From: Methanolinea sp.
Lineage (GTDB): Archaea; Halobacteriota; Methanomicrobia; Methanomicrobiales; Methanospirillaceae
Length of the DNA: 64,000 nt
Direction: 5' to 3'
Assembly (NCBI GenBank): GCA_029907345.1
Contig: JARYMB010000004.1
Span: 1-64,000, forward strand
The notes below the pieces were generated by a model. The model was given only the letters and a program-made list of their open reading frames with translations. It was not told the DNA's origin and did not search any database. This document shows positions 6,619 through 22,159 of this stretch, one piece after another. Made by a program: the position numbers and the translations under genes. Every line of letters starts with the position of its first letter. The stretch's first letter is position 1.

Positions 6619-8130
6619 TTAACCTACCTGGAACAGGTATATCCCGGTGTATTCTCCTATGAAACGACTATTTTGTTCCAGCCATTCGATGCTCGCACCC
6701 GATGGTTCTGATGCAGAAATATCGCGGGTTAATATGAAATAAATTCTTTTTCCCTGATAATCCCGGACTGCTTCTTCCAATTCCCTGATATTGGACGCCC
6801 CGATTTGCGTTGTATTATCCATCAATGGATCGTAATAATAGTTAAATGGATAATGTAAATATGCAGGCATGAGGACCACTACATCTCCATCATTTGTGTA
6901 ATTTTCAAATTCATGTGAAAAATCCCGCCAATTTTCTTTTGTATAGACTGTGTAGGTGGTTACCAGGAGAGGGACATGTAATAAGGCTATTCCAATAATC
7001 AGAATGAGAACTACCATCCTCTTCTTAAAAATATGGCAGAAGATTCGTGTCGAATATGCAATTCCCAAAAACAGGAAAGGTATCATGATATAAAAAAATC
7101 TTAACTCAAAGGGCATCTTAAAAGAAATGAAATAACTCATGAGAAAGATAGTCACAATTCCAAACAGTAAGAAGATCCCTTTTTTCCTCTCTTCATAGAG
7201 GCACCAGATAATTCCGATAATGAAGAGTATTGACAGGATTCCAACAAGAAGGAGATCACCCCCCAATAACGCGGGTATGGCATAAATAAGGACTATAATC
7301 CCACTAAGTCCATAGGTTGGACTTACAGCAGTCCTCTTTAAAAATAAGTCGAATGTGACAATTATCAAGGGAAGTGTAATAACAATGAAAGAGACCAAAA
7401 AAATTCCCAAGTTTTTCATATATTCTTTCTTTTTCTCCTTATCGAATATGATGAAGAATGAGCCGAAGAAAAGGAGGATACCAGGGATTAGTGCCGTGTA
7501 AAAATGGGTCCATAATGCCAGTCCTGAAAAAACACCGCAGAGAACCCAATGAGACACCTGGTTACGTGTAAGTCCCATGAAAAAGAGGAGGATAGCAAGG
7601 GATGCAAATAAGAGGGCCAGCGTATATGCCCTTGCTTCCTGGGAGTAGTACAGTAAAAAGATTGAAAATGTTGCCAGTGTGGCACATATTATACCTGAAT
7701 TCTTATCCTTGAATTCTTTTCCCAACAGGAAAAAAACGGGTATCAGGAGAGTCCCGGCAAGCGCAGGGATGGTTCTCAGGATTGCCTCTGAATTCCCGAA
7801 GTGGAGCATGAGAGACTCGATGAGATAGAAAAGGGGAGGATTGAACTCAGCCCCTGTTTCAAGAGACCCCCAAAGTTCAGAATAGGGGAGAGAGGCAAAG
7901 TGGTAAGTCATTGCTTCATCAAGCCAGAGGGAATTGAAACTAATATTATAGAATCTCAATAAAAAACCGGTAAATGTAAGAATAACTATGATTTGAACGT
8001 ATCTGTCTTTTAACAGGGAGGAGACGATGCTCTGAGTGGACCATGCGAAAGAATCCAACGAGGATGTATTCAAATCGCATGGATCTCTTGTCTTTTTTTC
8101 AAATCCTGAACTTTCCCTTCTTTTTGCCAT
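6619..8130 (-). CDS. Multi-pass ArnT/GT39-like glycosyltransferase
   Basis: 503 aa, many TMs; FNSLWLDEAMTYHFA... FNPPLFYLIESLMLHFGNSEAILRTIPALAGTLLIPVFFLLGKEF...YYSQEARAYTLALLFA. Confidence 0.88.
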   Translation of the reverse strand: MAKRRESSGFEKKTRDPCDLNTSSLDSFAWSTQSIVSSLLKDRYVQIIVILTFTGFLLRFYNISFNSLWLDEAMTYHFASLPYSELWGSLETGAEFNPPLFYLIESLMLHFGNSEAILRTIPALAGTLLIPVFFLLGKEFKDKNSGIICATLATFSIFLLYYSQEARAYTLALLFASLAILLFFMGLTRNQVSHWVLCGVFSGLALWTHFYTALIPGILLFFGSFFIIFDKEKKKEYMKNLGIFLVSFIVITLPLIIVTFDLFLKRTAVSPTYGLSGIIVLIYAIPALLGGDLLLVGILSILFIIGIIWCLYEERKKGIFLLFGIVTIFLMSYFISFKMPFELRFFYIMIPFLFLGIAYSTRIFCHIFKKRMVVLILIIGIALLHVPLLVTTYTVYTKENWRDFSHEFENYTNDGDVVVLMPAYLHYPFNYYYDPLMDNTTQIGASNIRELEEAVRDYQGKRIYFILTRDISASEPSGASIEWLEQNSRFIGEYTGIYLFQVG

Positions 8131-8244
8131 TACATGCTATAATGAATCGGATTCTATAAAGATATCCAATTTTTTATTCTCCCTGCAACTTGGAGGGACA
8201 ATCTTTGGAGGCCGCATAGACTTGGTTAAACAGGATAATTTTTT

Positions 8245-8468
8245 GGCTCTTCGCTAATCTGAGTGGGTAATGAGAACCCAATGTGGGGGCTGGTCGCCCC
8301 CACACCCCCACATGAGGATGGTTCCGCCGCCCCCGAAGGGCGCCCCGGCGGCGGTTTCACGAAGGGTTTCATAGAAAGTCTATGTTTCTTCTTTGAATAA
8401 ACCAATTCAAAACGAAGAAAGAATGTCATGCACTCATGCAACTTACCCACTTAAAATGACGAAGAGGG
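8245..8468 (+). mobile_element. MITE-like interspersed repeat, copy 1
   Basis: Shares nearly all of its ~224 bp with 21935-22159. Termini GGCTCTTCGCTAATCTGAGTGGGTAA / TTACCCACTTAAAATGACGAAGAGGG form a 26-bp imperfect inverted repeat (19/26). Flanked by AATTTTTT at 8237-8244 and 8469-8476. Confidence 0.75.
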
Positions 8469-8500
8469 AATTTTTTTCATTTCACCGCCAGTTTTCCTTC

Positions 8501-9346
8501 TCATAACACAGATGGCGCCTTGAGCACCTGCAGCAGTTCCTCCTCGTTCCGGACGACCCGCGATGACTTCTCGAGCATCAGGTTGACATGTTCATGCATC
8601 CCTGCCCGCCGGAAATCCGTCCTCAACGCGACAACAGGAATCCCCCGGGCATAAGCGTATCCCATCTCCCACGACGTCCCTGAGTCTGCATCCGCCCCGT
8701 CGATGACGGCAACGACAATGTCGCTCCTGGCTATCTCCCCGCAGCACCGGGAAAAAATTCTTCGCTGCGATTCTTCATCCCGGTGGCTGCTGTCATCGCC
8801 TGCCTCCTGGGGGAGGAAGACCGAGAAGAAGTGTGCAGCGAGGAGATCCCGGAGGTGGACATTGTAACGCCTTTCTGCAGCAGAAAAGAGGGGGGCGGCA
8901 AGGTAGATGCGGTACCGGGAAAAGTCAGTAACATCGATTGCCGGAATGGCGGAAAATCTTGCCAGGAAGACGCCTCTTCCTGCCCGGCGGGCAGGGCCCT
9001 TCCCGTCATCGCCATAGTATGTTGTATCCACCCCGCAGGTTGGGGAAGAGTTGACACCCACGATGCAGAGCGGCGGGCCCCGGGCTCTGATGATCTCTTC
9101 CACATCCCTTTCGAGCCGGTCAAGGAGATGGAAAAAATCATCCGTGTTGAGTCGTTCGAGGAACGTCCCCGGCTCCCGGTCCCTCCCCAGAAAAAGCATC
9201 TCCGGACAGGGAAGGAGGACAACATCTATTCCACAATCCCTGCAGCGGCAGAGGGCCTTCTCGAAAGCCCGGAGGTCGGATTCCCGCGTTATCCCCCTGG
9301 CCCTCAACCCCGGGTCCCTGATACAGGGACACGCCAGAACGTACAT
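8501..9346 (-). CDS. TudS/DUF523-related N-terminal domain fused to a nucleoside 2-deoxyribosyltransferase-like domain
   Basis: ORF track gives 8501..9601, but the natural start is likely the ATG at 9344-9346 (MYVLACPCIRDPGLR). N-terminal CPC, LLPCPEMLFLGRDREPG and VNSSPTCGVDTTYYG motifs. C-terminal RIYLAAPLFSAAERRYNVHLRDLL...ARSDIVVAVIDGADADSGTSWEMGYAYARGIPVVALRTDFR is nucleoside deoxyribosyltransferase. Confidence 0.85.
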   Translation of the reverse strand: MYVLACPCIRDPGLRARGITRESDLRAFEKALCRCRDCGIDVVLLPCPEMLFLGRDREPGTFLERLNTDDFFHLLDRLERDVEEIIRARGPPLCIVGVNSSPTCGVDTTYYGDDGKGPARRAGRGVFLARFSAIPAIDVTDFSRYRIYLAAPLFSAAERRYNVHLRDLLAAHFFSVFLPQEAGDDSSHRDEESQRRIFSRCCGEIARSDIVVAVIDGADADSGTSWEMGYAYARGIPVVALRTDFRRAGMHEHVNLMLEKSSRVVRNEEELLQVLKAPSVL

Positions 9347-9377
9347 TGATAGAAAATGGAAAGGAAAGAATACATAG

Positions 9378-9869
9378 ATGATCCCCCTGTTTGCCTTCCG
9401 GGACAACAGCTGCGATCCCCGCAAGTGCACCGTCCGGAGGCTCGAGAGGGCCGGGCTCATCCGGGTCTTTTCAAAAGTATCCCGGATTCCGAGAAATACT
9501 CTCCTCCTTGACCCTACCGCAGAACGGGCCCTCTCTCCTGCCGACAGGAGCCCCCGTTCACTCTCCGTCCTCGACTGTTCCTGGGAGGTTCTCGAAGACA
9601 TCCCCCTCGGCTCCTGGCGTCACCGGAGGGCCCTCCCCTTCCTGGTTGCGGCCAACCCCGTCAATTTCGGGAGGCCCTGGCGCTTATCCTCTGTCGAAGC
9701 TCTTGCCGCAGCACTTTTCATCATCGGGGAGAGAGAACAGGCAGGGGAAATCCTTGGCACAGTCCCCTGGGGTACTCGTTTCCTCGAATTAAACGAAGAA
9801 CCCCTCGACCTCTATTCAAAGGCGCGGGACAGCCGGGAAGTCCTCGAGGTGCAGAAACTCTACTATTGA
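9378..9869 (+). CDS. tsr3: Tsr3-like rRNA aminocarboxypropyltransferase (DUF367)
   Basis: 163 aa; DPRKCTVRRLERAGLIR...VLDCSWE...RRALPFLVAANPVNFGRPWRLSSVEALAAALFIIG; diagnostic Tsr3 motifs. Confidence 0.93.
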   Translation: MIPLFAFRDNSCDPRKCTVRRLERAGLIRVFSKVSRIPRNTLLLDPTAERALSPADRSPRSLSVLDCSWEVLEDIPLGSWRHRRALPFLVAANPVNFGRPWRLSSVEALAAALFIIGEREQAGEILGTVPWGTRFLELNEEPLDLYSKARDSREVLEVQKLYY

Positions 9870-21631: not shown

Positions 21632-21875
21632 AACCTGCACATGCAGGAAAGCCAGGAAGGGGAGGCGTTCATTCTGTTACGTGCTCTCCCCAAATCTGCA
21701 CACGCAGGAAAGCCGATAAAGGGAGGCGTTCGTCCTGTTACGTGCACTCCCCCAATCTGCACATGCAGGAAAGCCGATAAAGGGAGGCGTTCGTCCTGTT
21801 ACGTGCACTCCCCCAATCTGCACATGCAGAAGAGTCAGGAAGGGGAGGAGTATGTCCTGTTACGAGCTCTTCCTT
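21632..21875. repeat. 61-bp tandem repeat, 4 units
   Basis: CTGCACAYGCAG cores start at 21635, 21696, 21757 and 21818, exactly 61 bp apart. Unit aatctgcacatgcaggaaagccgataaagggaggcgttcgtcctgttacgtgcactccccc. Units 2 and 3 differ at a single position; units 1 and 4 are more diverged. Confidence 0.95.
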
Positions 21876-21934: not shown

Positions 21935-22159
21935 GGCTCTTCGCCAATCTGAGCGGGTAATGAGAACCCAATGTGGGGGCCGGTCGCCCCCACACCCCCC
22001 ACGGGGATGGTCCCGCCGCCCCTAAAAAATGCGCCCCGGCGGCGGTTTCACGAAGGGTTTCATAGAAAGTCTGTGTTTCTTCTTTGAACAAACCAATTCA
22101 AAACGAAGAAAGAATGTCATGCACTCATGCAACTTACCCACCCAAAATGATGAAGAGGC
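21935..22159 (+). mobile_element. MITE-like interspersed repeat, copy 2
   Basis: Same element as 8245-8468, same orientation. Termini GGCTCTTCGCCAATCTGAGCGGGTAA / TTACCCACCCAAAATGATGAAGAGGC (19/26 inverted-repeat match). Flanks GCATTTTT (21927-21934) / ACATTTTT (22160-22167). Confidence 0.75.

Follow-up and report, generated by a model that had tools for sequence, protein, structure and literature searches.

What kind of sequence lies between two minus-strand genes of the window (the whole stretch of 64,000 nucleotides that was analysed), one encoding a PMT_2 membrane protein (6619-8130) and the other being nucleoside 2-deoxyribosyltransferase-like (8501-9601), and how did it get there? From the sequence we delineated a 224-bp element at 8245-8468, bracketed by two exact copies of AATTTTTT, the second of which is followed by T (Table 1). 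The terminal 26-mers of the element are identical at 19 positions out of 26, and a repeat search of the window paired inverted arms at 8247-8270 and 8443-8466 (79%); in these structural features the preliminary description was accurate. We counted four occurrences of the terminal pattern in the window where 0.43 would be expected, and in none of 100 shuffled sequences was the number of four reached. The four matches are both ends of this element and both ends of a second copy located at 21935-22158.

It had also been claimed that the element has no capacity to code for a transposase. Indeed, the list of ORFs of the window contains no transposase ORF inside the 224 bp, nor any plausible gene. 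A 74-aa minus-strand ORF at 8226-8450 was considered as a gene and rejected as a mechanical ORF only. Directly upstream of the second copy, at 21740-21860, a ∼50-bp segment (gataaagggaggcgttcgtcctgttacgtgcactcccccaatctgcacatgcag) is tandemly repeated, with a third diverged copy present.

Table 1. Features of the 224-bp element and of its second copy (window coordinates)
Feature	Position	Strand	Basis
Left copy of the 8-bp target duplication, AATTTTTT	8237-8244	.	Sequence; single copy at empty site
Left terminal inverted repeat, GGCTCTTCGCTAATCTGAGTGGGTAA	8245-8270	+	Identical to IS left end on contig C2
MITE nt 1-110, homologous to left 109-110 nt of ISL3 IS (97%)	8245-8354	+	BLASTN of MITE versus IS left part
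G-run with two alternative C-run partners (ATGTGGGGGC / GCCCCCAC / CCCCCACAT)	8281-8313	+	Inverted repeats; kept in relatives
31-nt hairpin CCGCCGCCCCCGAAGGGCGCCCCGGCGGCGG, common to unrelated elements of one archaeal family	8324-8354	+	
81-nt core with predicted hairpin (z about -3.9)	8355-8435	+	No match to IS; fold
MITE nt 192-224, homologous to right 33 nt of ISL3 IS (97%)	8436-8468	+	BLASTN
Right terminal inverted repeat, CCCTCTTCGTCATTTTAAGTGGGTAA on minus strand	8443-8468	-	Sequence, repeat search
Right copy of the 8-bp target duplication, AATTTTTT	8469-8476	.	Sequence
Second MITE copy (92%), flanks GCATTTTT / ACATTTTT (7/8)	21935-22158	+	

Such a structure had been interpreted as a non-autonomous MITE, and the distribution of its copies supports this interpretation. 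We observed 42 matches to the element in the genome (1.86 Mb, 61 contigs). Five copies are 99.5-100% identical over full or almost full length, the identity of the remaining full-length copies goes from 96% down to 74%, and the other matches are fragments or are cut at contig ends; this gradation of identity suggests that the MITE has spread in several waves. Both ends are present in 15 copies, situated in differing gene contexts rather than in a constant one. Exact 8-bp repeats flank eight of the 15, all eight being different: AAAAAAAA, AGATTGAA, AATTTTTT, GAAGATTT, GTTAATTT, GCTTTGAT, AGTTTTTT and AAAAAAGA. If agreement at seven or more of the eight positions is counted, the number rises to 11 of 15 (three of them at 7/8). 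By comparison, in 20,000 re-pairings of the left and right flanks among copies no exact pair appeared, and the mean was 0.5 for agreement at ≥7/8. The AT content of the flanking 8-mers is 81%.

The site as it would look prior to insertion is seen in the sister genome G003, where at the locus corresponding to that of the window the flanks are present, the element is absent and the target exists in one copy. The joined flanks with one copy of the target, GGATAATTTTTTTCATTTCACC, align ungapped to GGATACTTTCCTTCATTTCACC of G003; therefore, the window genome has in addition exactly the element and one target copy. Thus, the empty site proposed as a check was found, and the comparison reveals duplication of the target rather than an empty site without it. 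For the empty-site search we used the first four of 11 joined-flank loci (three whole and the fourth partial), and the clean outcome came from the window locus.

Observations of a different kind were made at several other loci. The near-identical MITE copy L005 (C22:112523) starts with TGCCCTTC rather than GGCTCTTC, and TGCCCTTC is also read in the flank past the right duplication; target sequence thus appears to have taken the place of the left end of this copy. Contig C39 (4505 bp; L073) has a terminal redundancy of exactly 1252 bp (period 3253), with the MITE at the join; the contig may be a small circular element, or a segment between MITE copies may have been duplicated in tandem. It carries short ORFs with apparent resemblance to toxin-antitoxin pairs. 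At L002, on contig C59, the right flank of the MITE includes a 115-bp stretch that has counterparts of 98-99% identity in three further species of the genus and once more on C59. As this level of identity is far above usual, the stretch is probably another mobile repeat.

Which element could have moved the MITE? An ISL3-like IS residing elsewhere had been suggested as the mobiliser, and an ISL3 IS with matching termini is present in the same genome, divided between contigs. The sole match to PF01610 (ISL3 DDE transposase) is situated at the start of contig C59 (E=4.5e-34), and the sole match to PF14690 (ISL3 zinc ribbon) at the start of contig C2 (E=4.6e-12). For both transposase pieces the best NCBIfam match was NF033550, ‘ISL3 family transposase’, with scores below the full-length cut-off, each piece being partial. 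On contig C2 the IS starts with GGCTCTTCGCTAATCTGAGTGGGTAA; its first 110 nt have 97% identity to positions 1-110 of the MITE, after which the transposase starts (MGPEFQNQIFSQALNIQKPWY). Contig C59 carries the transposase terminus, ...GKLEFNLPT-stop, and the IS there closes with 33 nt that are 97% identical to MITE positions 192-224. Among named relatives, those closest to the transposase come from ‘Euryarchaeota archaeon’ (82%) and ‘Methanomicrobiales archaeon’ (60%), which would place the host in Methanomicrobiales.

Contigs C36 and C14 start with the same right end of the IS; C22, C16, C7 and C20 carry the left end at one of their termini. The flanking 8-mers pair across contig ends, C22 with C14 (TAAAAAAA) and C16 with C36 (AATTTTTT), and both pairs of contigs can thereby be joined around a collapsed copy of the element (contig ends L060, L061, L062 and L074). 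Such matching flanks indicate that at least two full insertions are hidden in assembly gaps; that these would be insertions of the IS rather than of the MITE is suggested by the IS sequence at the C14 and C36 sides. Many contig breaks of the assembly fall within the MITE or the IS.

The middle of the IS is absent from the assembly, and no intact transposase frame was seen among the assembled pieces. A full-length decayed relative of the IS (1388 bp), with ∼91-92% identity in the compared parts, was found in G219 (L132 / L083) and at the corresponding locus L104. In comparison with G219, the transposase piece on C59 has a 52-bp deletion and a shifted frame; for this reason the C59 copy is not functional. 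The 81-nt core of the MITE has no match in the available parts of the IS (C2, C59) or in the full IS of G219.

We conclude that the element is almost certainly a non-autonomous MITE that arose from an ISL3-family IS by internal loss and replacement, and was presumably moved in trans by an ISL3 transposase into A/T-rich 8-bp targets. In this process the transposase gene would have been lost, with 110 nt of the IS retained on the left, 33 nt on the right and both terminal inverted repeats kept; the IS-derived part of the MITE is thus lopsided. The ISL3 transposase, with its zinc ribbon and DDE domain, would recognise the shared ends and act in trans, and the A/T-rich 8-bp targets would be duplicated upon insertion. 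It is likely that the very IS of the window's genome mobilised the MITE, and the five copies with at least 99.5% identity point to mobilisation in recent time. That the MITE is active now we infer only, the sole sequenced C-terminal copy of the transposase being frameshifted.

Intact ISL3 ISs of the same order (L075, L076 and L078) have ends GGCTCTTCG...GTGGGT, like those of the MITE, with GGTTCTTCG at one end of L075; the terminal inverted repeats of the MITE and its IS are of the GGCTCTT type, as in these intact members. The three ISs, with ends such as GGCTCTTCGTCGTTTCAAGTGGGT, are flanked by exact 8-bp duplications (aagaaata, tccagatt and agataatc); they are 1286-1292 bp long and have a transposase frame of 407-415 aa, whereas the MITE has no transposase frame.

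Few genomes of the order (20 of 232) carry an ISL3 transposase, and within the genus PF01610 was detected only in the window's genome. Still, MITEs with the same ends are common in the genus, several of them with 8-bp duplications. The 190-bp ISL3-type MITEs of sister genomes (L036, L056, L130, L131 and L137) and the 221-bp MITE of G010 (L031 and L053) have GGCTCTTCGC left ends; they share with the window MITE the 8-bp duplications (exact or 7/8) and the GC-rich left module, while in the 190-bp group the core and the right half differ from those of the window MITE. The PF01610 search found no ISL3 transposase in the genus members with these 190-bp and 221-bp MITEs. Such a pattern would be expected if the genus had lost its autonomous element repeatedly, although draft genomes can hide an IS at contig ends, as happened in the window's genome. 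It also counts against our explanation that most relatives in the genus have related MITEs yet no PF01610 match; in these relatives the transposase may have been lost, may have been missed or may act from elsewhere.

The sister genomes with MITEs and without PF01610 are in agreement with another scenario, in which the MITE was spread by a different, now lost ISL3 element and the local IS shares with it the ends only. The 81-nt core without match to the IS and the frameshift in the only C-terminal transposase copy observed would fit this scenario too. Nevertheless, the 97% identity to the local IS over 110 nt at the left and 33 nt at the right end of the MITE, the 8-bp duplications at insertions with IS right ends and the fact that several MITE copies are still identical make it unlikely. 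Further alternatives concern the nature of the element itself. A vertically inherited RNA gene or regulatory element located by chance between A/T runs could account for the hairpins, one of them strong in comparison with shuffled sequences, and for the high conservation of the 31-nt core; however, the dispersal of copies over many contexts with different exact 8-bp duplications and the empty orthologous locus of G003 refute it, the Rfam search of the window gave no match, and we see practically no chance that it is correct. An equally negligible chance is left to a REP-type palindromic repeat or an IS200/IS605 derivative, which GC-rich hairpins and intergenic dispersal might bring to mind, but which is disfavoured by 8-bp target duplications and terminal inverted repeats of this kind, features that REP and IS200/605 elements are not known to have.

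New archaeal MITEs from nine IS families have been described, and it was noted that MITEs often have little beyond the ends in common with the partner (Kamoun et al. 2013, PMC3852290). One of them, an ISL3-related (ISMac21-related) MITE of Methanosarcina acetivorans, is 179 bp long and has 6 copies, IR 22 and DR 7 (PMC3852290, Table 4). Judged by the published description, it resembles the window MITE in having an archaeal methanogen host, in belonging to the ISL3 family, in similar size and in the presence of several copies; it differs in host order, in the length of DR (7 versus 8) and in copy number, as the window MITE family has ∼15 both-ended copies and many fragments in comparison with 6 copies. 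The preliminary description called the element undescribed. This holds for the window MITE family and does not hold for ISL3-derived archaeal MITEs as a kind: since the ISL3 MITE of M. acetivorans was already reported, only the family is new. A literature search, thin on subscription journals, returned no article describing ISL3 MITEs for either Methanoregula or Methanospirillum. Useful for annotation, the window MITE forms a clean archaeal pair with an IS of its own genome, documented by duplications and an empty site.

The best-kept part of the elements across relatives is not the ends but positions 38-112 of the MITE. Of 231 genomes of the order, 27 contain the 31-mer CCGCCGCCCCCGAAGGRCGCCCCGGCGGCGG (with no more than one mismatch), with up to 20 occurrences per genome; each of the 27 belongs to the window's own family. 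The reversed control pattern had no match in the 231 genomes, and in the phylum sample the 31-mer itself was absent from the other families. An exact-match search of IMG/VR viral contigs returned nothing, so a viral origin of this module is not supported. Besides the window copy, the near-invariant 31-nt hairpin was observed at L117, L114, L127 and L150-L169. Its location depends on the carrier: the left end in ISL3 ISs and MITEs; in G011, the stretch of an IS256/Mutator element that follows the stop codon of its transposase (PF00872, E=2e-105) and precedes the apparent right inverted repeat; and, in G024 and G008, dispersed repeats without ISL3 ends.

The G-run at 8281-8313, with its C-run partners (GTGGGGGC / GCCCCCAC / ACCCCCAC), adjoins the 31-nt hairpin and is kept in relatives; it could be a switch between two pairings. 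As for the hairpin, the GC-rich sequence at 8320-8380 folds no better than shuffled sequence (z 0.15). The 31-nt core hardly varies between copies and is therefore too constant for covariation to test the hairpin.

The shared 31-mer could have originated either by common descent of a captured module or by recruitment for a shared function. Tentatively, and with more doubt than confidence, we suggest that the 31-nt hairpin, with its weakly conserved GAT...TCA flanks, may be a portable family-specific signal with a host-linked purpose, taken up separately by unrelated mobile elements. Such a signal would be placed upstream of the transposase in ISL3 ISs and MITEs, downstream of it in the IS256/Mutator IS, and also in at least two other dispersed repeats. 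If this is true, the hairpin would serve a common host-linked purpose, e.g. read-through control or binding of a host protein; the question raised is why the same near-invariant 31-nt sequence resides in unrelated transposons of one methanogen family.
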